A DNA stretch of 64,000 nt from an uncultured Ligilactobacillus sp. Lineage in GTDB: Bacteria; Bacillota; Bacilli; Lactobacillales; Lactobacillaceae. The notes beneath the pieces were generated by a model that saw only the letters and a list, made by a program, of their open reading frames with translations, was not told the origin of the DNA and did not search any database. A program made the translations under genes and the position numbers. Of this stretch, positions 21,961 to 53,563 are shown in pieces. Each line of letters opens with the position of its first letter. Within the stretch, counting starts at the first letter, position 1. Where the stretch lies: assembly GCA_944326135.1 (NCBI GenBank), contig CALVCU010000003.1:1-64000 (forward strand), written 5' to 3'.

Positions 21961-22024
21961 TTTTATTAACAATAAAAGTTAGTTGCTTTTGCTTAAAATA
22001 GTCATGAAAAATTCACATTTAGTC

Positions 22025-22080
22025 AGTATGCTATAAAGCATAGTAAATAACATCCCTAGTTATTTGCTACCTAACATACT
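22025..22080 (+). ncRNA. Structured RNA element downstream of the coiled-coil gene
   Basis: Outer stem AGTATG (22025-22030) with CATACT (22075-22080) encloses TAGTAAATAAC (22041-22051) paired with GTTATTTGCTA (22059-22069), with a 7-base loop. A strong terminator follows 20 bases later. It is most likely part of the 3' region of the coiled-coil mRNA or a processed RNA. No separate promoter is clear. Confidence 0.4.
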
Positions 22081-22100
22081 CCAAATATACAATCCTTTTT

Positions 22101-22137
22101 CTCTAATCTATGGTTTCATAGATTAGAGTTTTTTTTT
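22101..22137 (+). terminator. Terminator of the coiled-coil transcript
   Basis: Perfect 12-bp stem CTCTAATCTATG (22101-22112) with CATAGATTAGAG (22117-22128), then nine T residues. It lies 140 bases beyond the stop codon. Confidence 0.95.
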
Positions 22138-22185
22138 ACTTAAAAATAATCTTATATACTTTTTGAATTATTCAAACAAAAAATC

Positions 22186-22306
22186 TTGACTTTTAAAAAA
22201 GAACCAAGTAACATTGTATGCGAAATAGTTTGATAGTAGATAAAGTAGTCAAAGTGCTTTACCCACTCTTTAGTTGTGCAGCTAGGGGTGGAGTAGCACT
22301 TTTTTT
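22186..22306 (+). promoter_or_regulatory. mnmE promoter and leader with terminator-like hairpin
   Basis: Promoter TTGACT (22186-22191), 17 bases, TAACAT (22209-22214). About 30 bases after the expected start is a long hairpin whose base is AAAGTGCT (22251-22258) with AGCACTTT (22295-22302), and whose top includes TAGTT/AGCTA. It is followed directly by a T-run. A complete terminator between promoter and mnmE suggests attenuation. The signal is unknown, and no T-box or known riboswitch core was recognised. Confidence 0.55.
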
Positions 22307-22347
22307 ATTAGTTAAATGTTTATTATGAAAAAGAAAGGGTTTTAAGC

Positions 22348-23739
22348 ATGGTAGAAGAAGCAACAGAATATGATACGATTGCAGCCATTTCAACACCTCC
22401 TGGTGAAGGTGCAATTTCAATTGTACGTTTGAGTGGCGATGATGCTTTGTCAATCGCTATGAAAATTTATAAAGGTAAGGATTTAACTAAAGTACCAACT
22501 CACACTATTCATTACGGGCATATTATTGACCCTAAAAATAATGAAATGGTTGATGAAGTAATGGTAACAGTAATGCGTGGACCAAAGACATATACACGTG
22601 AAGACATTGTTGAAATCAACTGTCATGGTGGGATTGTACCAACTAACAAAATTTTACAATTATTGTTAACTTATGGTGCTCGAATGGCTAATCCAGGAGA
22701 ATTTACAGAGCGTGCATTTCTTCATGGAAGAATTGATTTAACACAAGCTGAATCAGTTTTAGATATCATCGAGGCTAAAACAGATCGCTCTGCTCAATTA
22801 GCATTAAATCATTTAGGTGGTAGTCTTGCTAAATTAATTCGTGGATTACGTGAAGATATTTTAGATACTTTATCTAAAGTTGAGGTTAATATTGACTATC
22901 CAGAATACGATGGTACAGAAATGATTACAACTAACTTATTAAAAGAACGTACCATTGAAGTTCGTGAAAAAATTCAACGTCTTTTAGAAACTGCTCAAGG
23001 CGGGAAAATTTTACGTGAAGGTTTAGCAACTGCAATTGTTGGCCGTCCAAATGTAGGAAAATCAAGTTTATTAAACTATTTATTACATGAAGATAAAGCA
23101 ATTGTTACTGATGTTGCTGGTACTACACGGGATGTTATTGAAGAATATGTAAATATTAAAGGAATTCCATTGAAATTAATTGATACGGCAGGAATTCGTG
23201 ATACAGAAGATAAAGTTGAAAAAATCGGGGTTGAACGTTCACGGAAAGCAATCAATCAAGGCGATTTAGTAATCTTAGTATTAAATTCTAGTGAGCCATT
23301 AACAGATGAGGACCGCCAATTAATTGATTTAACTAAAGACAAACAACGAATTGTAATTTTAAATAAAACTGATTTGCCACAACAAATTGAAATTGATGAG
23401 ATTGAAAAATTAGTCGGTCGGGAAAATATAATTGAAACTTCAATTAAAAATGATGTTGGGGTCGATGAATTAGAAAACCGCATTAAAGAAATGTTTGCGC
23501 AAGGAATTGAAAATTCACAAAATGAAGTTATTATTAATAATGCACGTCATATTGCGTTGTTAAATAAAGCAGCAAATTCATTAGATGCAGTTTTAACTGG
23601 AATTAACAATGGAATGCCTGTTGATTTGTGTCAAACAGATATGCGTGATGCATGGGAATACTTAGGTGAAATTACAGGTGATTCATATAAAGATGAATTA
23701 TTGGATGAATTATTCAGTAAATTCTGTCTTGGAAAATAA
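22348..23739 (+). CDS. mnmE: tRNA uridine-5-carboxymethylaminomethyl modification GTPase
   Basis: GTPase that with MnmG modifies the wobble uridine (cmnm5U34) of several tRNAs. The N-terminal tetrahydrofolate-binding domain starts [20 protein letters not shown]. The G domain has GRPNVGKSS (G1), the DTAGIRDT switch (G3) and NKTD (G4). The C-terminus ends FCLGK, matching the catalytic Cys of the C(I/L)GK motif. The length of 463 residues is normal. The gene is 25 bases ahead of mnmG, its functional partner. Confidence 0.96.
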
Positions 23740-23764
23740 TTAAATCAATTTAAAGGAGGATAAA

Positions 23765-25681
23765 ATGCAAGAGGGAAAGGCCTATAAAGCAAAAGACTAT
23801 GACGTCATTGTTGTTGGTGCTGGGCATGCTGGCTGTGAAGCCGCTTTAGCAGCAGCAAGAATGGGAAATAAAACATTATTGATGACAATTAACCTTGAAA
23901 TGGTAGCATTTATGCCATGTAATCCATCTGTTGGTGGACCAGCTAAGGGAACCGTAGTACGTGAAATCGATGCTCTTGGTGGTGAAATGGGTAAGAATAT
24001 TGATAAGACTTATGTCCAAATGCGGATGTTAAATACAAGTAAAGGTCCTGCTGTGCGAGCATTACGTGCTCAAGCTGATAAACGTCAATATTCGATTGAA
24101 ATGAAACATACATTAGAAAGAGAGCCAAATCTAACTTTACGTCAAGGTATGATTGATGATTTGATTATTGAAGACGGTAAAGTAACAGGAGTTGTTTCTA
24201 ATACTGGAGCACATTATGGTGCTAAATCAGTTGTATTGACAACAGGAACAGCTGCACGTGGAAAAATTATCATTGGTGAATTGATGTATTCTTCAGGTCC
24301 CAATAATTCACAACCAGCAAACGAATTAACTAAGAATCTTGAAGAAAAGTACGGTTTTGATATTGTACGGTTTAAGACAGGAACTCCACCACGAGTTGAC
24401 GGAAATACAATTAATTATGATGAAACTGAAGAACAACCAGGTGATGCAGAAGTTAACCACTTTAGTTTTGAATCTTCAGATGATGAATATATTCCAGTGA
24501 AGGATCAGTTGTCTTGCTGGTTAACATACACTAATGAAAAAGTTCATCAAATTATCCGTGATAATTTAGATCGTGCACCAATGTTTACAGGTGTAATTGA
24601 AGGAGTAGGTCCACGTTATTGTCCTTCAATTGAGGATAAAATTGTTCGGTTTGCAGATAAAGATCGTCATCAATTATTCTTGGAACCAGAAGGACGGACA
24701 ACTGATGAGTATTATGTTCAAGGACTTTCAACTTCTCTTCCAGAAGAAGTACAATTAGAAATGTTGCATAATGTTAAGGGACTTGAAAATGCTGAAATGA
24801 TGCGGCCAGGATATGCTATTGAATATGATGTTGTTTCACCATATCAATTGCGTCCAACATTGGAAACAAAATTAATTAATGGTCTCTATACAGCCGGACA
24901 AATCAATGGTACTTCTGGTTATGAAGAAGCTGCCGGTCAAGGTTTGATTGCAGGGATTAATGCAGGACGTCATGCTCTAGGAAAAGATGAAATTGTATTA
25001 AAACGTAGTGATGCATATATTGGTGTTTTAGTTGATGATTTAGTTACAAAGGGAACTAATGAACCATATCGTTTATTAACATCACGTGCGGAATATCGTT
25101 TGATTTTACGTCATGATAATGCAGATTTGCGATTAACTGAAATTGGTCACGAAATTGGATTAATTTCAGATGAACGTTATGCTAAATTTGAACAAAAGAA
25201 AGCAGATATTGAAAACGAAAAACAAAGATTAGAATCAATTCGGATTAAACCTAATAAAGAAATTGATGCTTATCTTGAAGCTCATGGTGACCATGCATTA
25301 AAAGATGGCGTATTAGCAAGTGATATGTTACGTCGTCCATACATGAGTTATAATGATTTACTTCAATTTATTCCTGCGCCAGATCATAAATTAGATAAAC
25401 GCGTAATCGAACAAATTGAAATTCAATATAAATATGCTGGTTATATTAAAAAGGCTGAAGAAAAAGTTGAAAAACTACACCGAATGGAAGCTAAAAAGAT
25501 ACCCGCAAACATTGACTATACAGCCATTGAAGGGTTAGCAACTGAAGCGGTTGAAAAATTAAGTAAGATTCAACCTGAAACTTTAGCACAAGCAAGTCGA
25601 ATTAGTGGGGTAAACCCAGCAGATATTTCAATTTTAGCGGTTTATATTCAACAAGGAAGAATCGCTAAAACAGAGGCATAA
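23765..25681 (+). CDS. mnmG: tRNA uridine-5-carboxymethylaminomethyl modification enzyme MnmG (GidA)
   Basis: FAD-dependent partner of MnmE in cmnm5U34 tRNA modification. The N-terminal Rossmann motif is [21 protein letters not shown]-like, followed by the conserved [11 protein letters not shown] loop with its catalytic Cys region. The C-terminal tRNA-binding helical domain includes [12 protein letters not shown]. The 638 residues are typical. The ATG at 23765 has AAAGGAGGA upstream. In many Firmicutes rsmG, noc and parAB follow, but here a terminator and a MarR gene come next. Confidence 0.96.
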
Positions 25682-25692
25682 TAAATGATTAG

Positions 25693-25748
25693 ATGTGAAA
25701 GTTAACTAAAGGCTTTATTAAATAGCTGAAGGAACTTTCACATTTTTT
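25693..25748 (+). terminator. Terminator after mnmG
   Basis: ATGTGAAAGTT (25693-25703) pairs with AACTTTCACAT (25733-25743), followed by T6. The loop is unusually long at 29 bases. Confidence 0.85.
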
Positions 25749-25787
25749 ATTTTTATATAAAATTTTCGTATTTTGAGATTAGTTGAA

Positions 25788-25866
25788 TTGCTAATTACAT
25801 TAAGATTAAATAAAATATAATAAAGAGAGATAATTCAGTTTAGTAACTACTTATATGGACTAAACT
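25788..25866 (+). promoter_or_regulatory. marR promoter with perfect inverted repeat
   Basis: A possible promoter is TTGCTA (25788-25793), 16 bases, TAAAAT (25810-25815). A perfect 9-base inverted repeat CAGTTTAGT (25835-25843) / ACTAAACTG (25858-25866) follows, just downstream of the expected start site. It is a good candidate operator for autoregulation by the MarR protein. Alternatively it may be a leader hairpin. Confidence 0.5.
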
Positions 25867-25902
25867 GGACTACGAAAAATCTATCCTTTCGGAGGGGTCA
25901 AT

Positions 25903-26373
25903 ATGGGTGAAAATAAGAGCCGAGAAAATAAAAAAATGCAAATTTTAAGTGATAAACTATTTAGTTTATATAGTTTAACAATGCAACACGAAGGCAATGA
26001 ATTAGCTCATAGTCAATTTAAAGACATAACAGTTAAGGATTTGCATTTAATTCATTCGATTGCAATGAACAAGAACCAAACAATTACAAAAATTGCACAC
26101 CAAATGTCATTATCTAAAGCAACTTTAACAACAAGTATTGATAAATTAGAACGTTTGGGATATGTTGAACGTGAAAGAAATACAACTGATCGTCGTATTA
26201 TTAATATCGTTTTAACTAAAAAGGGAAAATTGCTTTATAGATTGCATAACCGTGAACATGCAGAATACATCAATGTTCTTTTAAAGGGTCTTTCTGATAA
26301 GGAAAGAGAAGATATTAATAAGGCTTTAGATAATTTAATTGGATATTTGGACAAAATTGAAAATGATAAGTAA
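25903..26373 (+). CDS. MarR family transcriptional regulator
   Basis: A 156-residue winged-helix regulator. The DNA-binding region is about residues 55-105: TITKIAHQMSLSKATLTTSIDKL followed by GYVERERNTTDRRIINIVLTKKG, the classic MarR recognition helix and wing. The ATG at 25903 follows CGGAGGGG. The FabT regulators of lactic acid bacteria are similar, but no fatty acid synthesis genes are here, so the target is unknown. A perfect inverted repeat upstream suggests self-control. It converges with pepO over a shared terminator. Confidence 0.88.
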   Translation: MGENKSRENKKMQILSDKLFSLYSLTMQHEGNELAHSQFKDITVKDLHLIHSIAMNKNQTITKIAHQMSLSKATLTTSIDKLERLGYVERERNTTDRRIINIVLTKKGKLLYRLHNREHAEYINVLLKGLSDKEREDINKALDNLIGYLDKIENDK

Positions 26374-26409
26374 AAAAAACCTAAGATCTAAATTGATCTT
26401 AGGTTTTTT
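26374..26409. terminator. Bidirectional terminator between marR and pepO
   Basis: AAAAAACCTAAGATC (26374-26388), 6-base loop, GATCTTAGGTTTTTT (26395-26409). It serves both convergent genes. Confidence 0.93.
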
Positions 26410-26412
26410 ATT

Positions 26413-28323
26413 TTACCAAATACTTACGCGCTTATCGGGTGATAAATACATTCCATCATTTTCTGTAATATTAAACGTTTGATAGAATTCAGGTAAATTT
26501 TGTGGCTGGACGTTAGCTCTTAAAACAGCTGGAGCATGAACATCGATATTTAATAGAAGTTGCATTCTTTCCATAGAAGCTTTTACACGCCAAATTCGTG
26601 CCCAGTTAATAAAGAAAGCTGTTAAATCGGCATCGGATTCTGCTTTAGCAGCTTCGAGTGCACAACTTAAACCACCAGCATCAGCAATGTTTTCCGAAAC
26701 GACTAGCTTACCGTTTACTTTACCAGCTGGTGTTTCCAAACCATCAAATTCATTGATCATGTCTTGAGCTAAATTTTGGAAGTAATCTAAGTCTTCTTTT
26801 GTCCACCAGTTATGTAAGTTTCCTTTTTCATCAAATTGAGCACCGTTATTATCAAATGCATGTGAAATTTCATGAGCAATAACGGCTCCAATCCCGCCAT
26901 AATTTTGGCTGGATGATTGTTTAATGCTATAAAATGGTGCTTGCAAAATTGCTGCAGGGAAAACAATAACATTAAATTGAGGATCATAATATGCATTAAC
27001 CATATGAGCAGGCATTTGCCAACGTGTACGATCGACTTTTTTACCAAACTTAGCAAAGTGATTACGAATAGTGATTTCAGTAAAGTTTAATGCATTATCT
27101 AGTAAGGATAAATCCTCATTAACTTTAAATTTCTTGTATAAAGGATCTAATTCACTAGGATACCCAACATTAATTCCTAATGCATCCAATTTAACAATTG
27201 CTTGTTTACGTGTTGATTCACTTAGCCAATCATTTTGTTCTAATCTCTTCTTATATACATTGACCATTTGATGAACCATGTGTTCAACATCTTTTTTAGC
27301 TTCAGCACTAAAATATTTATGTGCATAATAAAGACCAACTGTTTGATTAAAGCGGTTAGTAGCAAGATAATATGCGGATTTTTGTGGACTCATTGCTTTT
27401 TTTGAACCAGAAAGTGCTCGTGAAAATTCGCCACCGCATACACGAATGTCATTGCTTAGATAACCGGTGACACTGGTTAAAGTATTTACTAATAGCCAAC
27501 TCTTAAAGTTTTCAAAAGTGTCTTCATTAACGATTTGGTTAAGTGCTTCATAGTACTTAGGTTCTTCAACAATAACTTGATCAGGAACAGTTCCAATTAA
27601 GCCTTTGATATAAGTTTCAAGATCAAGAATTGAACTAAATTTCTTAAAGTCATCAAAAGAGTACTTATTGTACATTTCAGGGTAATTTGCTCGTTCAGTA
27701 CTGTCTTTTTCATGTGGTGCAAGAGAAGCATCAAATGCTAAGGCACGTTTTAAATGTTCTTTTGCGCTTTGATCATCAAAATCAGCCATCTTAAATAATT
27801 TCATTACCATGTTTGAAAAAACTTGTAAAAGCATTTTGCCATTTTCGTTTTCTTCAGTATAGTAAGTTTTATCTGGAAGAATCAAAGAAGGCACAGAAGC
27901 ATAAAGTGCATAGTTTTCAGTATCTTTCATGTCGCTACTTACATACATATTAATAGGAGCTTCATAGCCTTGCATTGTTAATTCAATAGCTTTGTTTTGC
28001 CAATCTTGCCAATCTTTTAGTGCTAAAATGGATTGTAAATATTTTTTAGCAGGAGCAAAACCATCATGATTCCTTTGATTAAAGTTCAATGCAAGGCGAT
28101 AATACTTAACGAATTCACGTAGGTATTGATCAGCAACTTCAGTATCAAGCATTGTATCAAAATCATGCATTAAGGTTTGTTCAATATCATCAGCTAAATC
28201 TTGAAATCCCCCAGTTTGTGGTTTATCATCAGGTATTTTTGCTGTTTTTAGCCAGTTGCCATTAACAGCCATATATAAATCGTCTTTAATTAAGTCTTTA
28301 TTTACAGTATCTTTTTCAGTCAT
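26413..28323 (-). CDS. pepO: Neutral endopeptidase PepO (M13 family)
   Basis: Zinc metallopeptidase that cuts oligopeptides in the cytoplasm of lactic acid bacteria. The zinc motif HEISH is at residues 484-488, and the third ligand is in ENIADAGGL at about residue 544. No signal peptide is present. The 636 residues match PepO. The ATG at 28323 has AGGAGGT upstream. It ends VSIW, normal for PepO being ...W. Monocistronic, with terminators on both sides. Confidence 0.94.
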   Translation of the reverse strand: MTEKDTVNKDLIKDDLYMAVNGNWLKTAKIPDDKPQTGGFQDLADDIEQTLMHDFDTMLDTEVADQYLREFVKYYRLALNFNQRNHDGFAPAKKYLQSILALKDWQDWQNKAIELTMQGYEAPINMYVSSDMKDTENYALYASVPSLILPDKTYYTEENENGKMLLQVFSNMVMKLFKMADFDDQSAKEHLKRALAFDASLAPHEKDSTERANYPEMYNKYSFDDFKKFSSILDLETYIKGLIGTVPDQVIVEEPKYYEALNQIVNEDTFENFKSWLLVNTLTSVTGYLSNDIRVCGGEFSRALSGSKKAMSPQKSAYYLATNRFNQTVGLYYAHKYFSAEAKKDVEHMVHQMVNVYKKRLEQNDWLSESTRKQAIVKLDALGINVGYPSELDPLYKKFKVNEDLSLLDNALNFTEITIRNHFAKFGKKVDRTRWQMPAHMVNAYYDPQFNVIVFPAAILQAPFYSIKQSSSQNYGGIGAVIAHEISHAFDNNGAQFDEKGNLHNWWTKEDLDYFQNLAQDMINEFDGLETPAGKVNGKLVVSENIADAGGLSCALEAAKAESDADLTAFFINWARIWRVKASMERMQLLLNIDVHAPAVLRANVQPQNLPEFYQTFNITENDGMYLSPDKRVSIW

Positions 28324-28368
28324 TTTGAGACCTCCTTACAGATATTTTAAACTTAATCTAAAAAAAGA

Positions 28369-28442
28369 CAAAAAAATAGGCCAAATTTTCCAATTAATTA
28401 TCAAATCCCACTGCAAATTTGACAATTAATAAAAATTTGGCC
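28369..28442 (-). terminator. Very long hairpin terminator after the metallothionein-like gene
   Basis: GGCCAAATTTT (28379-28389) pairs with AAAATTTGGCC (28432-28442). The pairing continues inward (ATTAATT/AATTAAT, then TCAAAT/ATTTGA), giving a nearly perfect stem of about 25 bp. On the minus strand it is followed by TATTTTTTTG. It ends transcription from 28578 and also insulates pepO. Confidence 0.85.
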
Positions 28443-28467
28443 CAGTCACGCAGGAGTTTATCTCATA

Positions 28468-28578
28468 TTACTTATTTTGAGCACATGAGCATTTTGCATT
28501 TGGGTTCGACTTGCAAGTGCAAGTTTTACCGTTTGAACAGCCACATGAGCATTCACATTTGCATTGCTTTTCAGTCAT
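28468..28578 (-). CDS. Metallothionein-like cysteine-rich peptide
   Basis: A 36-residue peptide with nine cysteines arranged CxCxCxCxC (Cys6, 8, 10, 12, 14), then CxC (20, 22) and CxC (31, 33): MTEKQCKCECSCGCSNGK is the first half. Dense CxC pairs are typical of metallothioneins, which bind Zn, Cu or Cd ions in thiolate clusters. It has no histidine and no similarity I can see to cyanobacterial SmtA/BmtA. GAAGGG lies 6-9 bases before the ATG at 28578. The gene has its own promoter, a structured leader of about 125 bases and its own terminator, so it is very likely expressed. A metal-binding function is inferred from composition only. Confidence 0.75.
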   Translation of the reverse strand: MTEKQCKCECSCGCSNGKTCTCKSNPNAKCSCAQNK

Positions 28579-28740
28579 ATAGAACCCTTCTTTGCTAAGA
28601 ATAATTTGCTTAATAAAATAAGGAGCCTCGACCCTGACTTAAATCATAACACATCACCTTATGGTCACTAGTTTACCATCTAACACAGGGCTTCTAACTC
28701 CTTACAATTCTTATTATATGTAGTTTGCCGATAATATCAA
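28579..28740 (-). promoter_or_regulatory. Promoter and structured leader RNA of the metallothionein-like gene
   Basis: Promoter on the minus strand: TTGATA (28740-28735), 16 bases, TATAAT (28718-28713). The RNA should begin near 28706. It folds at once: P1 TAAGGAG (28704-28698) with CTCCTTA (28625-28619), P2 CCCTG (28690-28686) with CAGGG (28636-28632), and P3 ATGGT (28679-28675) with ACCAT (28665-28661). TTCTT/AAGAA (28600-28587) then abuts the Shine-Dalgarno. The motif TGTGTTA occurs twice inside P2. The layout is that of a riboswitch-like cis element, but I recognise no known family. Confidence 0.6.
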
Positions 28741-28765
28741 ATAAAAAGCTCAGAGTAAAATAAAT

Positions 28766-28795
28766 AATAAAAAAACAGACTATCACTAGTCTGTT
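28766..28795 (-). terminator. Terminator after tRNA-Lys
   Basis: AACAGACTA (28774-28782), 4-base loop, TAGTCTGTT (28787-28795). On the minus strand it is followed by a T-run. Confidence 0.9.
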
Positions 28796-28802
28796 AAAGT
28801 TA

Positions 28803-28875
28803 TGGGTGGTCAGGGGATCGAACCCTGGACCCACGGATTAAGAGTCCGTTGCTCTGCCAGCTGAGCTAACCACCC
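28803..28875 (-). tRNA. tRNA-Lys (anticodon CUU)
   Basis: A complete cloverleaf of 73 bases on the minus strand. The acceptor stem is GGGTGGT/ACCACCC, the D-stem GCTC/GAGC, the anticodon stem ACGGA/TCCGT with loop CTCTTAA (anticodon CTT), and the T-arm CAGGG-TTCGATC-CCCTG. The discriminator is A and CCA is not encoded. A terminator follows at once. Confidence 0.97.
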
Positions 28876-28987
28876 AAAAAATAAGTACATATCTTATCGA
28901 CGATTTATATAATACCAAGAATAAAATAGTATTGCAAGTCTTTTTTTTATTTTTTTTGAAAAATCTGTTTTTTATTGTTTTTTATAT

Positions 28988-29019
28988 TAAAAAGGATGCA
29001 TGTGCAGGTGCATCCTTTT
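28988..29019. terminator. Hairpin terminator of unclear direction
   Basis: AAAAGGATGCA (28990-29000), 8-base loop, TGCATCCTTTT (29009-29019). T-rich sequence lies on the minus-strand side. No gene to be terminated was identified, unless a transcript comes from the gene-free stretch 29020-29470. Confidence 0.6.
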
Positions 29020-29471
29020 CTGTTCTGTATTTTAAATCGCTTCTAAAAGTAAAATCAAGAGATTATTCTGGAAAATAGAATTAGGTGGTCCAATTTGATG
29101 TGAAATTAATTAAAACCATTCAAGAATGAGGTAACAAAGATTGACTTGAATGTAGTAAAAAACTTCAAAATAAATTAGTAAAAACTCCGGAGCTAATTAT
29201 TAATTTATGCATCAAAATGAATAATAAATGCATTATCAAGATTGGGAGAATGTATCAGATCATTACTTTGAATGAATGTAAAAAATGGAGAATGTATATT
29301 AGAACGAGAAAACATCCATTCAATGAAATGAAAAATACAGATAGTGCATAATTATTTTGACAAAGTAATTCATGATATTAAATTTAGAACCTACACGTAT
29401 TATATCACAGTTTTAAAAGTGTTTAGCTGTTTTCATGAAAAACCGTCAATTTTTGCAATAATTTTCAAAGT
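29020..29471. other. Gene-free stretch upstream of walR
   Basis: About 450 bases with no open frame of useful length on either strand and no tRNA. GAAAAACCGTC occurs at 29437-29447 and again at 29517-29527, the two copies flanking the walR promoter. Nothing else could be assigned. Confidence 0.5.
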
Positions 29472-29500
29472 TTGGCAAACATTTGGCGTTGTTTTATAAT
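29472..29500 (+). promoter_or_regulatory. walR operon promoter
   Basis: TTGGCA (29472-29477), 17-base spacer, TATAAT (29495-29500). A very good sigma-A promoter about 90 bases before the walR start. It is bracketed by two copies of GAAAAACCGTC. Confidence 0.85.
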
Positions 29501-29588
29501 TAAACATGAACAATAGGAAAAACCGTCGCTAGGAATAGAAATAGATTTTATTGATAAGCGGTACCAACTAGTTCCGGGAGGATTTAGA

Positions 29589-30308
29589 ATGACAAAAATT
29601 TTAGTAGTAGATGATGAAAAACCGATTTCAGATATTATTAAATTTAATTTGGAAAAAGAAGGTTATGATGTTTACACTGCATATGATGGTGAAGAAGCCT
29701 TAAAAATGGTAGAAGAAGTCGACCCTGATTTAATATTATTAGATTTGATGTTACCAAAAGTAGATGGAATCGAAGTTGCACGTGAAGTGCGTAAGACGCA
29801 TAACATGCCAATTATTATGGTTACAGCTAAAGATGCTGAAATTGATAAAGTATTAGGGCTTGAAATGGGTGCAGATGATTATGTTACAAAGCCATTTTCA
29901 AATCGTGAATTAATTGCACGTGTAAAGGCTAATCTGCGTCGTCAATCTACAGCTATAGCACAGGCTCAAGCACAAGAAGATGATGGAAAGAAAGCTGATA
30001 TTGAAATTGGCGATAATATCGTTATTCATCCTGCTTCTTACTCTGTTTCTAAAAATGGAGAAAAGATTGATCTTACACACCGTGAATTTGAATTATTGTA
30101 TTATTTAGCAAATCATAAGGGTCAAGTAATGACACGGGAACACTTATTACAAACAGTTTGGGGATATGACTATTTTGGTGATGTTAGAACTGTTGATGTT
30201 ACTGTTAGAAGATTACGTGAAAAAATTGAAGATGATCCAAGTCGACCAATTTGGTTAGTTACTCGACGTGGTGTAGGTTACTTTTTAAGAAATTCAGAAA
30301 CAATTTAA
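29589..30308 (+). CDS. walR: Response regulator WalR (YycF)
   Basis: OmpR-family response regulator of the essential WalRK system that controls cell-wall hydrolases and peptidoglycan turnover. The receiver domain has acidic residues VVDDE at 7-9 and phospho-acceptor Asp52 in LILLDLMLP, with Lys in YVTKPF. The C-terminal winged helix includes [12 protein letters not shown] and [17 protein letters not shown]. The length of 239 residues is usual. GGGAGG precedes the ATG. It heads the operon walR-walK-yycH-yycI-walJ. Confidence 0.97.
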
Positions 30309-30328
30309 TTTAAAGGATTGGAATAAAA

Positions 30329-32224
30329 GTGAGTGAACAAAAACAAACAAAAGATGTAAAAAAACTTCACTTCTTTCAATCGATTCATTTTAAAATTGCC
30401 CTGGTATTTGCGCTATTACTTTTAATTGCGTTTCAAATTGTCGGGGCTGTTTTTATTCAACGATTGAAAAGTGATAATTTAAAGTCATTTAAACAAAGGG
30501 TAGAACTATCTTCCTATGTAGATAATTCTCTTGCACAAAATTTGATGTCTAGTGATACCCAAAGGGCAAATGAACGTATAAAAACGATTTTAGAGGACGT
30601 TAATAATAGTAATATTACAGATGTTGAGGTTGTCGATGCAAAGGGAACTATTCGTGGTGATAATGACGTAGATAATCGTTCTTTAGTGGGACAAAGAACA
30701 ACGGATAGTGATATTAAGCAAGTTCTTTATAATGGTCGTACTTATTCTAAAATGACTTACGATCGAAATGATAACAAACGTTATTATATTTCAATCACAC
30801 CATTATTTAGTGCAACTGGAAATACTAATACCGTTGTCGGAGCGGTTTATATTCGAGCTAGTCTAGAAAGTGTTTATACCTCAATCAATAATGTTACTGT
30901 TATTTTCGCAACAGCAGCATTGATTGCAACTGTGATTGGACTGTTTTTAGCTATTATTTTATCAAGTACAATTACACGTTCAATTGATGAAATGAAAAAA
31001 CAAACAACTAGAATTGCAAATGGAGATTATTCAGGTCAAGTTCATATTTATGGAAAAGATGAGCTTGGTCAATTAGCCCAAGCGGTTAACAATTTATCAG
31101 TTCGAGTTGAAGAGGCACAGGAACAATCAGAATCAGAACGAAGACGACTTGATTCAGTATTAACGCATATGTCTGATGGAGTTATTGCTACTAATCGTCG
31201 TGGAAAGATTAATATTATTAATCAAGCTGCATGTGATTATTTAGACATCGAAGAAAAAGATACAATTGGAAAATCAATTTTAGATGTTTTAAAGATTCAT
31301 GATCGCTATACTTTGCATGATTTACTTGAAAATCAAGACGAAATTACACTTGATATGTCAGAAGATGACCATGATCAAATTTTACATGCTTATTTCTCAT
31401 TGATTCAACGTGAGTCTGGTTTTATTTCAGGAATTGTTTGTGTTTTACGTGACGTAACAGAACAAGAAAAAATTGATCGTGAATTGCGGCAATTTGTTTC
31501 AAATGTTTCACATGAATTGCGGACGCCATTAACAAGTATGCGCAGTTATATTGAAGCTTTAAATGATGGAGCTTGGAAGGATCCTAATGTGGCCCCTGAA
31601 TTTTTAAAGGTCACTCAAGAAGAAACAGATCGGATGATTCGGATGATTAATGATTTATTGAAATTGTCACGAATGGATTCAGGCCGAGTTAAATTAGATC
31701 TTGAATTGGTTAACCTAAATGAGTTATTTAGTTATATTTTGGATCGTTTTGAAATGATGCTTGAAAAAGATAATAATGATACTCATGCAACCAAATCCAA
31801 AAATTATACTATTAAACGTGATTTTACAAAGAAGGATTTATGGGTAGAAATTGATACTGATAAATTTATTCAAGTAATTGATAATTTAATGAATAATGCG
31901 ATTAAGTATTCACCAAATGGTGGTGTAATTACATGTCGACTACTAGAAACGCATAACCACGTAATTTTGAGTATTTCAGACCAAGGTCTTGGAATTCCAA
32001 AGAAAGACTTAAATCATGTCTTTGATCGTTTCTTCCGTGTTGATAAAGCACGTTCACGAGCACAAGGTGGCACAGGTTTAGGTTTGGCAATCTCTAAGGA
32101 AGTTATTGAGATGCACCATGGTAAGATTTGGGCAGATAGTGTAGAAGGTAAAGGTTCAACTTTCTATATTTCATTACCATATCGTGAATACGATGAAGAG
32201 GAGGATCTATGGGGTGAAGATTAA
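30329..32224 (+). CDS. walK: Sensor histidine kinase WalK (YycG)
   Basis: Membrane sensor kinase partner of WalR. It has TM1 at about 20-42, an extracytoplasmic domain, TM2 at about 190-212, a HAMP domain, a PAS domain around 275-375, and a dimerisation domain with phospho-acceptor His395 in SNVSHELRTPL. The ATPase domain has NNAIKYSPNGG, SDQGLGIP and GGTGLGLAI. The length is 631 residues. The start is GTG at 30329, with AAAGG about 12 bases upstream. It overlaps yycH by 11 bases. Confidence 0.96.
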   Translation: MSEQKQTKDVKKLHFFQSIHFKIALVFALLLLIAFQIVGAVFIQRLKSDNLKSFKQRVELSSYVDNSLAQNLMSSDTQRANERIKTILEDVNNSNITDVEVVDAKGTIRGDNDVDNRSLVGQRTTDSDIKQVLYNGRTYSKMTYDRNDNKRYYISITPLFSATGNTNTVVGAVYIRASLESVYTSINNVTVIFATAALIATVIGLFLAIILSSTITRSIDEMKKQTTRIANGDYSGQVHIYGKDELGQLAQAVNNLSVRVEEAQEQSESERRRLDSVLTHMSDGVIATNRRGKINIINQAACDYLDIEEKDTIGKSILDVLKIHDRYTLHDLLENQDEITLDMSEDDHDQILHAYFSLIQRESGFISGIVCVLRDVTEQEKIDRELRQFVSNVSHELRTPLTSMRSYIEALNDGAWKDPNVAPEFLKVTQEETDRMIRMINDLLKLSRMDSGRVKLDLELVNLNELFSYILDRFEMMLEKDNNDTHATKSKNYTIKRDFTKKDLWVEIDTDKFIQVIDNLMNNAIKYSPNGGVITCRLLETHNHVILSISDQGLGIPKKDLNHVFDRFFRVDKARSRAQGGTGLGLAISKEVIEMHHGKIWADSVEGKGSTFYISLPYREYDEEEDLWGED

Positions 32225-33548
32225 AAAATATTTGCTGCATATAGGATTAATAATTGCAGTGGGAGTTAGTTTAGTTTTTTCCGCAATTATTTGGCTTGAT
32301 CCAGTAACTTTTCATCATAATACAACACAAACAACGACAACAAATGACTTGGATAATATTACTAAGTCAGATAATAATTACAAATGGTCAGATGTTTATC
32401 TACCAACTAAAGTGATTTTGACCAAAGATAAACAGCAAATGCAATTAACAAGTGATAAAGAAGATTTAGTTGGTGATATTCGAAATAGTATTAAAAAAGT
32501 TCATGTAAAAGATATTACTGGAGATACTAAAGAGGACTTTGCAGCATATCGTTCAGAATTATTAAAGAATAACAGTATAATGTTGTCATATTCAGGCCCA
32601 GTTTCCATTGGCTTGTTTGAAAAGATGATGGATCAGCATATATTACTGAAAAAATATGCTAATAAAACGTTTAAACATATTGTCATTCCATTGGATGACC
32701 ATAAAACCATTTATTTATTTAATGATAGTAATTTAAAAGTTTATAAAGTAGAGTTGCTAAATGATTTACCAAATTCACTTTATAAGGTAGTTGACAATAA
32801 AAACGTGCAACAAACGTTAGTTCAATACCAAGAAATTAGTAAAAATAATTATATTTTGAATTACACTAAAGGGGTTAAAGTTTCACAATATAGTTATTTA
32901 ATTAATAAAGAGAACACTAATTTATTTATGACACGTTTATTAGGTTCATCAAATTCAAATTCAATTTCAACTAAAGAACATGATGAAATCACAACATATA
33001 CTACTAATAGTGGGCAACGATTGGTGATCGATGGAAAAACTGGGATGGTTACTTATTCTCGTGATGCACGTCAAAAGAAACATAGTACAGATAGTTCATT
33101 TAATGATATTCTTAAAGAGAGTTTCAATGATTTGAATCGATTAGGTGCTAATTTGGATGATGTTCGTTATCAAGGATATGATAGTAATAGTAAAAAAGTA
33201 ACATATCAAAGTTATGTAAATGGTTATCCAATAATTTCCAATAATTACAATGGAACTTATGAAATTAGCATTCAAAAGAATGGAGCAATGCAGTATCAAT
33301 TTTCAACAGATAATTTGCAAGTTCCACTTTCAAATAATGCTCAAACAGTTGATTTACCATCAACCAATGATGTAATTCAAACATTGAAGGATAATAATTA
33401 TAACATCAATAAAGTTAAGGATATTGTTGTGGGTTATGAATGGAAACAAAATGATAATTCTCAAATGGTAGTAGATTTAATTCCAACATACTTCGTTCAT
33501 TACAATGATATTTGGATTAACTATAAAGATTTAGGAAAAGAAAATTAA
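32214..33548 (+). CDS. yycH: WalK regulator YycH
   Basis: Membrane-anchored extracytoplasmic protein that with YycI controls WalK activity. One N-terminal membrane segment (YLLHIGLIIAVGVSLVFSAII) is followed by a large outside domain of weak sequence conservation. I place the start at GTG 32214 because GAGGAGG at 32198-32204 is 9 bases upstream, giving 444 residues. A longer frame from 32184 lies inside walK. Identity is based on position, topology and length. Confidence 0.88.
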   Translation: MKIKKYLLHIGLIIAVGVSLVFSAIIWLDPVTFHHNTTQTTTTNDLDNITKSDNNYKWSDVYLPTKVILTKDKQQMQLTSDKEDLVGDIRNSIKKVHVKDITGDTKEDFAAYRSELLKNNSIMLSYSGPVSIGLFEKMMDQHILLKKYANKTFKHIVIPLDDHKTIYLFNDSNLKVYKVELLNDLPNSLYKVVDNKNVQQTLVQYQEISKNNYILNYTKGVKVSQYSYLINKENTNLFMTRLLGSSNSNSISTKEHDEITTYTTNSGQRLVIDGKTGMVTYSRDARQKKHSTDSSFNDILKESFNDLNRLGANLDDVRYQGYDSNSKKVTYQSYVNGYPIISNNYNGTYEISIQKNGAMQYQFSTDNLQVPLSNNAQTVDLPSTNDVIQTLKDNNYNINKVKDIVVGYEWKQNDNSQMVVDLIPTYFVHYNDIWINYKDLGKEN

Positions 33549-33560
33549 GGAGGAAACATA

Positions 33561-34361
33561 GTGAATTTTAGACGAATTGAATGGATTTTCTTTATTGCAT
33601 TCATCATACTTGATATTTTTCTTGTTTCTTCATATTTTCGACAAGGTCCCATTCCTAATGCCAATTCCAAAGGAACAGAGAATACAACTGTTTCAGTGTT
33701 AAAAAGTATGCGTGATGATCAAATTAATGTTGGAAAAGTTTCTAATAAAAAAGATAATGGTTATTATATTTCTAGTTCAGATGGTAATCATTTGAAAGAA
33801 AAGGGTAACTCATTGCGTTATCAAAATTGGAGTTACAATAATAACCAAATTAACTCAACGTTTGCTACTATGATTAAAGTGAATGCTGATAATCCACAAC
33901 GATCATTGAAATCAATCGTTAATGATCCAAGTCAAATTATTGATGGAAAAGATTATAAATATTGTAAAAAATTATCTACTAAAAATGTGATTGTTTATGC
34001 GCAATATATTCATGGCGATCCAGTATATGATAGTTCTGGACAAATTCGTTTTCATGTGAAAAATGGATATATTGAGGGATATACCCAAGGACATTTGGAA
34101 AATATTCAAACTTTACGTGGATCACGTAAAATCATAAGCCAAAAGCGTGCTTTAATTTGGTTATATCAATATAATAAATTACCAAGTAATTCAACAGTTG
34201 AATCAAGTAATTTAACATACTCTAAATTACTTTCAGTAAACGGAAATACAATTTATATTCCGACATGGGTTTTCTATATTAAAAACAATGCTTCTGGAAG
34301 TACAATTTATCGTAAGATTAATGCCTTTACAGGAGCTGTAATGGATGATGGAAATAATTAA
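33561..34361 (+). CDS. yycI: WalK regulator YycI
   Basis: A 266-residue protein with one N-terminal membrane helix (EWIFFIAFIILDIFLVSSYF, about 6-25) and an extracytoplasmic YycI-type domain. In Bacillus the membrane helices of YycH and YycI bind WalK. The start is GTG at 33561 with AAGGAGG upstream. It follows yycH by 12 bases and precedes walJ by 23. The assignment rests on family features and the conserved operon. Confidence 0.9.
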   Translation: MNFRRIEWIFFIAFIILDIFLVSSYFRQGPIPNANSKGTENTTVSVLKSMRDDQINVGKVSNKKDNGYYISSSDGNHLKEKGNSLRYQNWSYNNNQINSTFATMIKVNADNPQRSLKSIVNDPSQIIDGKDYKYCKKLSTKNVIVYAQYIHGDPVYDSSGQIRFHVKNGYIEGYTQGHLENIQTLRGSRKIISQKRALIWLYQYNKLPSNSTVESSNLTYSKLLSVNGNTIYIPTWVFYIKNNASGSTIYRKINAFTGAVMDDGNN

Positions 34362-34384
34362 TTTGATTAGGAAGGAAATTTAAA

Positions 34385-35188
34385 TTGACGCAAGATACGA
34401 TGAAAGTTAGCGTTTTAGCAAGCGGAAGTACAGGTAATGCGACTTATATTGAAACGCCACATCATCAAGTATTAATAGACGCAGGATTGTCAGGTAAGAA
34501 AATTGAGGAATTAATGAATTCAATTGGGAAAACATTAGCTGATGTTGATAGTTTATTTGTTTCTCATGAGCATACTGATCATATTAAAGGAGTGGGCGTA
34601 TTAGCACGAAGATATGGAATGGATATCTATGCTAATGAAGCCACATGGAATGCTATGAGCTCTAAAATTGGTAAGATTGATGTTGCTCAAAAACATATTT
34701 TTAAAGCAAATTCTGTTTTATCATTAGGCGACTTAGATATTGAGAGTTTTAGTGTTTCACATGATGCTGCAGATCCACAATTTTATGAATTTCATCATAA
34801 TGGACACTCATTTGCAATTGTGACTGATACAGGATATGTTTCAGAACGAGTTGAGGGTGTAATAAAAAATGCTGAAGCTTACTTATTAGAATGTAATCAT
34901 GATACTGAAATGTTGCGCATGGGACCTTATCCATGGCAATTAAAACAACGAATCATGTCAGATACTGGTCACTTATCTAATGAAGATGGTGCAAGAGTAA
35001 TGATGGATGTTTTAGGAAATCATACAAAACAGATTTTCTTAGGACATTTAAGTAAGGAAAATAATATTAAAGAATTGGCCCACTTAACAGTTGAAAATAT
35101 GATGAAAGATAAAGATTTTGCGGTAGAACATGATTTCCATTTGTTGGATACAAGTCCTAATCATGCAAGTGAATTAATTGTATTATAA
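34385..35188 (+). CDS. walJ: MBL-fold hydrolase WalJ (YycJ)
   Basis: Cytosolic metallo-beta-lactamase fold protein of the WalRK operon. Homologues are nucleases (5'-exonuclease type) implicated in mismatch repair and in coordinating cell-wall growth with replication. The metal motif HEHTDH lies at about residues 60-65, and the start MTQDTMKVSVLASGSTGNATY is typical. The start is TTG at 34385 with AAGGAAA upstream. An internal ATG at 34400 has no ribosome site. The length is 267 residues. Confidence 0.93.
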   Translation: MTQDTMKVSVLASGSTGNATYIETPHHQVLIDAGLSGKKIEELMNSIGKTLADVDSLFVSHEHTDHIKGVGVLARRYGMDIYANEATWNAMSSKIGKIDVAQKHIFKANSVLSLGDLDIESFSVSHDAADPQFYEFHHNGHSFAIVTDTGYVSERVEGVIKNAEAYLLECNHDTEMLRMGPYPWQLKQRIMSDTGHLSNEDGARVMMDVLGNHTKQIFLGHLSKENNIKELAHLTVENMMKDKDFAVEHDFHLLDTSPNHASELIVL

Positions 35189-35196
35189 TAATAAAG

Positions 35197-35224
35197 CAGA
35201 CTATTATTTAATAGTCTGTTTTTT
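35197..35224 (+). terminator. Terminator after walJ
   Basis: CAGACTATT (35197-35205), 4-base loop, AATAGTCTG (35210-35218), then TTTTTTA. It ends the wal operon before htrA. Confidence 0.9.
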
Positions 35225-35351
35225 ATTAAAAATATACAATATGTTTTCTTATCTAGAATAAATTTTTTTCATAAAGAGTTCATATTTTATCTTTATAATT
35301 TATAATAATTTAGTAAGTAGTTAGTAAAATTATAAAGGAGGAGCATGTTAA

Positions 35352-36668
35352 TTGGATAACAAGAATCAATATAATGGTGATTACACACAAAATAAAACTG
35401 AGAAGCAGTCTCAACCACCAAAAGAAAAGAAAATGAGTTTAGTAAAAGTTTTTGTCATTGCTTTACTTGGTGGAGTTTTAGGTGGTGGCGGTATTTTAGG
35501 GGGATACGCAATTTACCAACATTATAATAACGATACTGTTACACAAGATAATCGTAAAGGAAAAACAGTTACAAGTAATATTAAAGTAACAGAAACAAAT
35601 CAAGCAACCAAAGCATTTGATAAGGTTAAGGATGCAGTTGTTTCTGTTGAAGCATATTCAACAAATAGTAATTCAATTGATGATTTATTTGGAAACATTA
35701 CTGGCGGTGATTCTTCAGAAAGTGCAACTTCTGAGAGTGAAGGATCAGGTGTAATTTATAAGAAAGATGGAAATACAGCTTTTATTGTAACGAATAACCA
35801 TGTAATTTCAGGTGCTGATAAAGTAGAAGTTTTAATGAATAATGGTAAGAAACTTTCAGCTACTGTTGTTGGGCATGATTCTATTTCTGATTTAGCTGTT
35901 TTAAAAATCAATGCACAGTACGTTACTGAAGTTGCGTCATTTGGTAATTCAAATGATATTCAAGTAGGACAAACTGCATTAGCTATTGGATCACCAATGG
36001 GATCAGAATACGCAACTTCTTTAACAGAAGGAATTATTTCAGCTAAGAAACGAACAATTGATGTAACTAACAGTCAAGGTGTTACAACTGGGCAAGCAAC
36101 AGTTATTCAAACTGATGCAGCAATTAATCCTGGTAACTCAGGTGGACCATTAATTAACTTAGCAGGACAAGTGATTGGAATTAATTCAATGAAATTGTCT
36201 AATACCGGTTCATCGACTTCAGGATCTTCTACTTCAGTTGAAGGAATGGGCTTTGCTATTCCAAGTAATGAAGTTGTTTCAATTATTAACCAACTAGTAA
36301 CAAATGGAAAAGTTATTCGTCCAGCTTTAGGCATTTCACTTGTTGATTTGGCAAATGTTTCAGAAGAACAACAAAAAGATGTATTGAAACTACCAAGTAG
36401 TGTTACTGAGGGAATCGTTGTTGCTAAAGTAAATAGTGATTCACCATTGAAGAATAGTGGTATTACAAAGGGCGATGTTATCGTTGAATTAGGCGGTAAA
36501 AAAGTTACTGGTATTGCTAGCTTAAAAGAAGCATTATATGATCATAAGGTTGGCGATACAGTTGAGATTCAATACTATCATGATGGACAATTGAAGAAAG
36601 CCAATGTTAAGCTAACATTAGAAGCAAATGATTCTAATACAACATCAGCTTCAAATGAAGGTAATTAA
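35352..36668 (+). CDS. htrA: Membrane-anchored serine protease HtrA/DegP
   Basis: Surface quality-control protease that degrades misfolded exported proteins. It has a cytosolic N-tail, one membrane anchor (about 31-52) and a trypsin-like domain with catalytic His150 (TNNHVISGA), Asp180 (SDLAVLKI) and Ser263 (NPGNSGGPL). One PDZ domain lies at about 330-420. The length is 438 residues. The start is TTG at 35352 with AAGGAGGAG 8 bases upstream. An ATG in another frame stops at once. It commonly follows walJ in this family. Confidence 0.95.
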   Translation: MDNKNQYNGDYTQNKTEKQSQPPKEKKMSLVKVFVIALLGGVLGGGGILGGYAIYQHYNNDTVTQDNRKGKTVTSNIKVTETNQATKAFDKVKDAVVSVEAYSTNSNSIDDLFGNITGGDSSESATSESEGSGVIYKKDGNTAFIVTNNHVISGADKVEVLMNNGKKLSATVVGHDSISDLAVLKINAQYVTEVASFGNSNDIQVGQTALAIGSPMGSEYATSLTEGIISAKKRTIDVTNSQGVTTGQATVIQTDAAINPGNSGGPLINLAGQVIGINSMKLSNTGSSTSGSSTSVEGMGFAIPSNEVVSIINQLVTNGKVIRPALGISLVDLANVSEEQQKDVLKLPSSVTEGIVVAKVNSDSPLKNSGITKGDVIVELGGKKVTGIASLKEALYDHKVGDTVEIQYYHDGQLKKANVKLTLEANDSNTTSASNEGN

Positions 36669-53232: not shown

Positions 53233-53563
53233 TTGACAAAAATTAAAAAGTGATTATAATCATTAAATAAATATTAATCAAAAACGTATCGAAAAGCAGA
53301 GTAAAAAAATTAAAATTTTCAGAGAGCTTCTGGATGGTGCAAGGAAGTAATTGAGATTTTTTGAAGATGGGCTTGGAATGGCACTAATAAATTATTAGTT
53401 AGTGACGGGGTTGCATCCGTTAATCATGCAAGGTTATTCCTAATTTAGAAGCATTAGGAGCAACTTGTTGAGGCTATTTGCTGTGAAGAAATAGCGAAAA
53501 AAGGTGGCAACACGATATAACGAATCGTCCTTTACCAATTTTGGTAAAGGACGATTTTTTTTT
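53233..53563 (+). promoter_or_regulatory. Methionine T-box leader of the metQNI operon
   Basis: Promoter TTGACA (53233-53238), 16 bases, TATAAT (53255-53260). The leader has stem I features (GAGTA, AGAGAGCTTC, GGATGGTGCAA) and a specifier loop GAAG-ATG-G, so the codon is AUG (Met). The T-box AAGGTGGCAACACG is at about 53501-53514. The terminator is ATCGTCCTTTACC (53524-53536) with GGTAAAGGACGAT (53543-53555), then T8. Uncharged tRNA-Met should favour the antiterminator and open the methionine uptake operon. The T-box reads UGGC, which would pair with a discriminator G, a small oddity for Met. Confidence 0.9.

Follow-up and report, generated by a model that had tools for sequence, protein, structure and literature searches.

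A conserved leader RNA ahead of an orphan metallothionein-like peptide gene in Ligilactobacillus, a possible metal-responsive control of translation

The window, i.e. the whole stretch of 64,000 nucleotides analysed here from an uncultured Ligilactobacillus species, carries a short gene for a Cys-rich peptide, preceded by a structured leader and followed by a long hairpin (Table 1). An own strong promoter and a leader starting almost at the transcript start had been claimed in a preliminary description of this DNA, and both claims hold. Seven promoter-like sites were counted in 28300-28900 (shuffle mean 2.0, sd 1.7), of which this promoter scores best; its -10 box TATAAT is kept in 7/7 loci, the window's own included, while the stretch upstream of the -10 box is variable. 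The outermost leader stem, P1, starts eight bases past the -10 box, and the transcription start is predicted to lie a few bases before P1.

Table 1. Features of the peptide locus and further elements of the window
Feature	Position	Strand	Remarks
tRNA-Lys(CUU)	28802-28876		upstream of the peptide gene
Promoter TTGATA-16-TATAAT	28713-28740	-	11 of 12 consensus bases
Leader RNA, aptamer-like domain (covariance model R1)	28617-28706	-	near-invariant core; credible only with the peptide gene
P1 5' strand GUAAGGAGUU	28696-28705	-	predicted (RNAalifold); resembles a Shine-Dalgarno (SD) sequence
P2 5' strand GCCCUG	28686-28691	-	predicted (RNAalifold); invariant
P3 hairpin AUGGU-AAACUAGUG-ACCAU	28661-28679	-	predicted (RNAalifold); stem invariant
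P2 3' strand CAGGGU	28631-28636	-	predicted (RNAalifold); invariant
P1 3' strand GGCUCCUUAU	28618-28627	-	predicted (RNAalifold); predicted anti-SD
Stretch UCCUUAUUU	28624-28616	-	able to pair with the SD region
Ribosome-binding region AAAGAAGGG	28585-28593	-	identical in 6/7 loci; AAAGAAGGU in L003
Metallothionein-like peptide ORF	28468-28578	-	36 aa, 9 Cys, MTEKQCKCECSCGCSNGKTCTCKSNPNAKCSCAQNK
Long post-ORF hairpin, terminator-like	28379-28442	-	z = -5.72, 0/200 shuffles
Invariant hairpin tip TTTGCAGTGGGA	28406-28417	-	12 bases, same in 7/7 loci
PepO-like M13 peptidase	26413-28323		NCBIfam PepO model 775 bits (cut-off 1000)
MarR-type protein	25903-26373		FabT model 122.9 bits (cut-off 200), AdcR 40 (cut-off 175)
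T-box leader	53280-53535	+	Rfam RF00230, 121.5 bits

The ORF reported earlier, with nine Cys in CxC pairs, is present at this place and conserved in seven genomes. The length of 36 residues is the same in all seven holders, and the alignment of the peptides shows all nine Cys to be invariant. In the window peptide a quarter of the residues (9/36) are Cys, arranged in six CxC motifs that are grouped in three runs, and neither His nor an aromatic residue occurs. In five of the other genomes the peptide is 67-72% identical to it. For six distinct sequences the pN/pS ratio was at most 0.34 in 15/15 pairs, some of them with very few changes, and by this comparison the ORF is under purifying selection; it is almost certainly a real gene. 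The label metallothionein-like is used here for the composition, the CxC spacing and the Cys conservation, not for membership in a family.

The peptide was detected in 7 of 26 Ligilactobacillus genomes; besides the window's own, these comprise one more genome of its species (G009) and five further ones. A scan of genome contigs assigned the five further loci to Ligilactobacillus aviarius DSM 20655, a second L. aviarius record, L. araffinosus and two metagenome-assembled candidates, excrementigallinarum and faecavium. Searches of 251 genomes drawn from the family (25 genomes at E <= 1) and of 295 genomes drawn from the order (8 at E <= 0.05) were credible only for the own genome and G005 in the former and for the own genome in the latter, all remaining matches having E >= 0.013. 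Had these draws included the remaining five or six holders, matches to them should have appeared, so they were presumably left out. No relatives were found in the viral contigs, plasmids and phages searched. The tRNA-Lys gene also lies upstream in the five named loci, and the sequence of the G009 locus shows its 3' end; by coordinates, pepO follows the peptide gene in 7/7 genomes. At the PepO loci of the other 19 genomes of the genus we found neither a tRNA nor an upstream frame with three CxC within the upstream stretch checked (900 bases in 17 genomes, 719 in L107 and 55 in L113). In L. aviarius, a P-type cation ATPase-like gene (L071:8253-10511, reverse strand) was noticed by eye beyond pepO and convergent with it.

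The leader is conserved to a degree that sets it apart from its surroundings. Its 66-base core shows no more than 3 differences in each of the 15 pairs of six distinct loci. Between the window (L001) and the locus L003, 0 of the 66 core bases differ. In the same pair the coding sequence differs at 31 of 108 bases, with 19 of 36 third codon positions affected, and the promoter at 16 of 30. A variable stretch of 17-18 bases separates the two blocks of the core. The preliminary description had proposed to look for homologous upstream regions, and a conserved leader indeed accompanies the peptide gene in all seven genomes. Among the 26 genomes of the genus, the covariance model R1 matched nine at E <= 0.5, comprising the seven peptide holders (E <= 1.5e-24) and two more, G015 (E 0.11) and G003 (E 0.33), which we reject as chance-level matches, as neither precedes a Cys-rich ORF. 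Of these two, the match at L068 lies inside a coding frame and the one at L069 overlaps the start of a coding frame; a third weak match, in L122, has E 0.32. In 397 family genomes the matches at E <= 0.05 were seven, identical to the seven peptide holders, and in 345 order and 348 class genomes only the own genome matched, from which the other six are taken to be missing from those two draws. Stricter filters applied to all searches of more than 40 genomes. The draws are overlapping samples, which do not prove absence elsewhere. By BLAST the leader matched 198 of the 251 family genomes at E <= 1; among the matches listed, long ones occur only in the own genome and in G005 (E 1.9e-29), and the others are short (E >= 0.0012).

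A known Rfam leader, be it yybP-ykoY, NiCo or another, was rejected for lack of a credible covariance-model match: the Rfam 15 models gave two matches to the window leader (E 4.3 and 9.5), both far below the gathering scores, and none to the leader in four relatives. This agrees with the earlier remark that no matching riboswitch family was known. A conserved upstream ORF was looked for by eye only, and a frame starting from GTG is not kept. The element was found in one small clade and ahead of one gene only, and it is very probably a conserved cis-acting RNA.

With respect to structure, the computed folding energy of 28575-28712 is -39.5 kcal/mol (z = -3.63), a value that none of 200 shuffles equalled. 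Given the seven sequences and no prompting, RNAalifold proposed three stems, P1 with 10 pairs, P2 with 6 and P3 with 5; for P3 in the window, the single-sequence minimum free energy (MFE) prediction chooses another fold. A three-stem leader with P1 at 28704-28698/28625-28619 had been proposed before. This P1 and the presence of two inner stems are recovered, whereas the identity of P2 and P3 with the earlier inner stems is uncheckable, as no coordinates were given for them. The small helix formerly described beside the ribosome site (UUCUU/AAGAA) is shared by the window and the second same-species genome; the remaining 5/7 loci lack its sequence, and it is therefore not counted as a conserved part.

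Covariation, which had been suggested as a check on the fold, is weak evidence for pairing in this nearly frozen core: 19 of the 21 pairs of P1-P3 never vary, one changes on both sides (U-A to G-C in L007, U-U in L003) and one is broken in L007. The covariation obtained was matched by 196 of 500 shuffles, and sliding the partners lowered the paired cells from 98% to 30-54%, as for any fitted structure. As the core is nearly invariant, the comparison decides neither for nor against compensatory change. As is asked of a riboswitch candidate, the leader is conserved, is predicted to fold and goes with a single gene.

An aspect that the preliminary description did not contain is a predicted competition of the ribosome site with P1, whose 3' strand, (U)CCUUAUUU, is able to form pairs with the gene's AAAGAAGGG. 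In the computation, the SD motif (GAAGG) is less accessible with P1 open than with P1 forced in 6/6 distinct sequences, which are related and thus do not represent six independent tests. The mean unpaired probability of GAAGG changes, from P1 forced to P1 open, from 0.46 to 0.11 in the window, 0.81 to 0.01 in L003, 0.68 to 0.36 in L004, 0.67 to 0.46 in L005, 0.65 to 0.38 in L006 and 0.68 to 0.00 in L007. When random complementary 7-mers served as P1, a change as large was reached in 10, 0, 16, 14, 18 and 0 of 200 cases (window, L003-L007), so that four of the six sequences give 10-18 and not 0. With P1 open, the mean pairing probability of the SD with the P1 3' strand is 0.87 in L001 and 0.99, 0.55, 0.37, 0.37 and 1.00 in L003-L007; at 0.37, L005 and L006 would use this direct anti-SD pairing less often than not, and their P1-open MFE structure is another fold. 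In the same-species genome L002, one extra T stands just before the ATG, near 28579 (TCTATTATG vs TCTATATG), and the SD spacing therefore varies by one base within the species.

In L007, two base changes in the P1 3' strand bring its match to the SD to a full nine pairs, CCCUUCUUU being the exact complement of AAAGAAGGG. Here the SD-blocked form is the predicted free ground state, with P1 at 0.00; each of the five remaining distinct sequences already has P1 in its free ground state (0.80-0.99). It follows that the set point would differ between relatives, and that in these five a ligand would have to act kinetically or through energies that the program lacks. On these computed structures, a translational switch by exposure of the SD is the best-supported mechanism, and we consider it somewhat probable. 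In such a model, a single-gene transcript starting a few bases before P1 would encode the 36-residue metallothionein-like peptide and would be controlled by its own leader RNA. In the closed leader domain (P1-P3), CUCCUUAUUU would be held in P1, leaving the ribosome site AAAGAAGGG freer and allowing the peptide to be made; with P1 open, the CUCCUUAUUU strand could pair with the ribosome site and translation would be hindered. As closure of the domain would leave the ribosome site accessible, any ligand stabilising the closed state would act as an ON switch.

Downstream of the ORF, the hairpin described earlier as a terminator is real, as its folding energy shows (Table 1), although it is missing from the output of the consensus terminator scan. 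For the 8 innermost pairs of its stem, 100% of the cells pair in four distinct rows and 4/8 pairs carry changes on both sides. None of 500 shuffles reached the paired percentage or the covariation score, while 10 reached the number of pairs changed on both sides and 37 the number of pair types. Three of these eight pairs (U-A, U-G, U-G) are part of the invariant 12-mer. The combination of an invariant tip with a covarying stem is new with respect to the preliminary description. The tip UUUGCAGUGGGA occurs once per genome, at this place, in each of the seven peptide genomes. Since a terminator needs the stem and not a frozen tip, the tip probably contacts something specific.

We rejected the tip as a genus-wide element: 9 occurrences were counted in 7 of the 19 genomes without the peptide, against 5 reversed-control matches in all 26, and when these 9 were folded with their flanks, 8 fell outside any such hairpin and the ninth, in L075, lay in a 7-bp hairpin. 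Pairing of the tip with the leader was likewise rejected, being no better than that of shuffled tips (127-160 of 300). Predicted pairing with the coding region beats most shuffles in five of the six distinct sequences (2-10 of 300), not in L003 (55 of 300), and is suggestive in those five. The predicted partner within the coding region corresponds to the codons of an invariant NPNAK stretch.

Our best explanation of the locus, to which we assign slightly less than even chances, is that the leader RNA acts as a ligand-ON element controlling the translation of an orphan metallothionein-like peptide and probably responds to metal. The most sensible ligand would be an ion of the Cu(I), Zn or Cd class that the peptide would sequester, or else something that an excess of this ion brings about. 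As the only gene credibly linked to the leader encodes a Cys-rich peptide, metal or thiol stress is the plain guess; for metal as the signal, which we infer from the peptide alone, the chances appear evenly balanced. The metal- or stress-responsive RNA control of a minimal metallothionein that had been put forward before is thus borne out in part: a conserved Cys-rich ORF, a co-occurring leader without credible Rfam match and a plausible switch agree with it.

The conservation of the leader and the SD competition are both silent on the ligand, and the same switch might be operated by an RNA-binding protein or by a non-metal small molecule such as a thiol, redox or other stress metabolite. No metal transporter or metal regulator was recognised in the ORFs of 22000-36000, which were inspected by eye apart from the profile-scanned proteins, and the nearby MarR-type protein, below both cut-offs, is closest to FabT and far from the zinc regulator AdcR. 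Against a signal of this kind speaks that the leader's only credible partner gene encodes a Cys-rich peptide, and we regard it as unlikely.

Improbable in our judgement is a leader devoid of a translational switch, which would serve as a stabiliser of the mRNA 5' end or whose P1, together with the U-rich tract UUAUUUUAUU, would form a leaky terminator. P1 stands nearly at the predicted transcript start and is followed by an A/U-rich tract, and direct SD pairing is weak in 2/6 sequences, as such a role would allow. Either function needs pairing, however, and not 66 nearly frozen bases that include single-stranded parts; the P1 site is absent from the terminator scan (which also misses the post-ORF hairpin), and L007 breaks a P1 pair yet completes the SD pairing.

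The nature of the peptide has to be considered as well. The window peptide matched no Pfam or NCBIfam family at E <= 10, and none of the seven peptide members matched a Pfam family; a comparison with PDB chains gave no credible match, a single one with a ribosomal protein (E 1.1) being put down to chance. The peptide is short, rich in Cys, built of CxC motifs and conserved in its Cys like a metallothionein, but corresponds to no curated model. These database results would also suit a Cys-rich zinc-ribbon-like or redox peptide, an identity that we hold to be hardly probable in view of the Cys content, the six CxC motifs in three runs, the lack of His and aromatic residues and the invariance of every Cys. 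Small thioneins have a comparable composition and Cys spacing. We thus treat the peptide as an orphan metallothionein-like one with putative metal binding.

That the conservation reflects a DNA element (operator or promoter) or recent shared descent, with an incidental RNA fold, is very improbable: the genomes are few and related and the P1-P3 covariation is no better than in 196 of 500 shuffles, but the promoter stretch, the third codon positions, the inner variable stretch and the arms of the terminal hairpin have diverged in the same genomes, and the conserved block, whose P1 arms are about 70 bases apart, is situated past the -10 box.

In its most far-reaching form, the preferred reading of a metal-responsive leader would make the leader a natural riboswitch of a new class, sensing a thiophilic metal (Cu(I), Zn or Cd) and switching on the translation of a metallothionein, and the terminator tip of the same short mRNA would be a second RNA element with sequence specificity. 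We rate this combination as doubtful. If true, it would join RNA metal sensing directly to a metal-sequestering peptide. To our knowledge, no natural riboswitch for Cu, Zn or Cd has been described. Among the paper titles listed, none concerns a metallothionein leader RNA or this 36-residue peptide.

The bacterial metallothioneins SmtA, BmtA and MymT are very small, Cys-rich proteins with CxC motifs. The window peptide shares the small size, the Cys richness and the CxC motifs with them, but it lacks His and has no Pfam or NCBIfam match. Small fungal Cu-thioneins are short as well, with CxC repeats and without His; they resemble the peptide in composition only, there being no credible sequence match among the PDB chains.

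Regarding the RNA, the czcD or NiCo riboswitch is a metal-responsive leader of metal-handling genes, placed upstream of putative cation efflux pumps (PMC9294342). It differs from the present leader, which precedes a thionein-like gene and is not matched by the NiCo model of Rfam. The Rfam model of the yybP-ykoY (Mn2+) riboswitch does not match this leader either, and that class is reported from more than 1,300 genomes (PMC9294342), whereas the element presented here was found in seven genomes of one genus. The logic proposed here is that of yybP-ykoY, a metal-sensing leader that can free the ribosome site of some genes upon Mn binding (PMC9294342).
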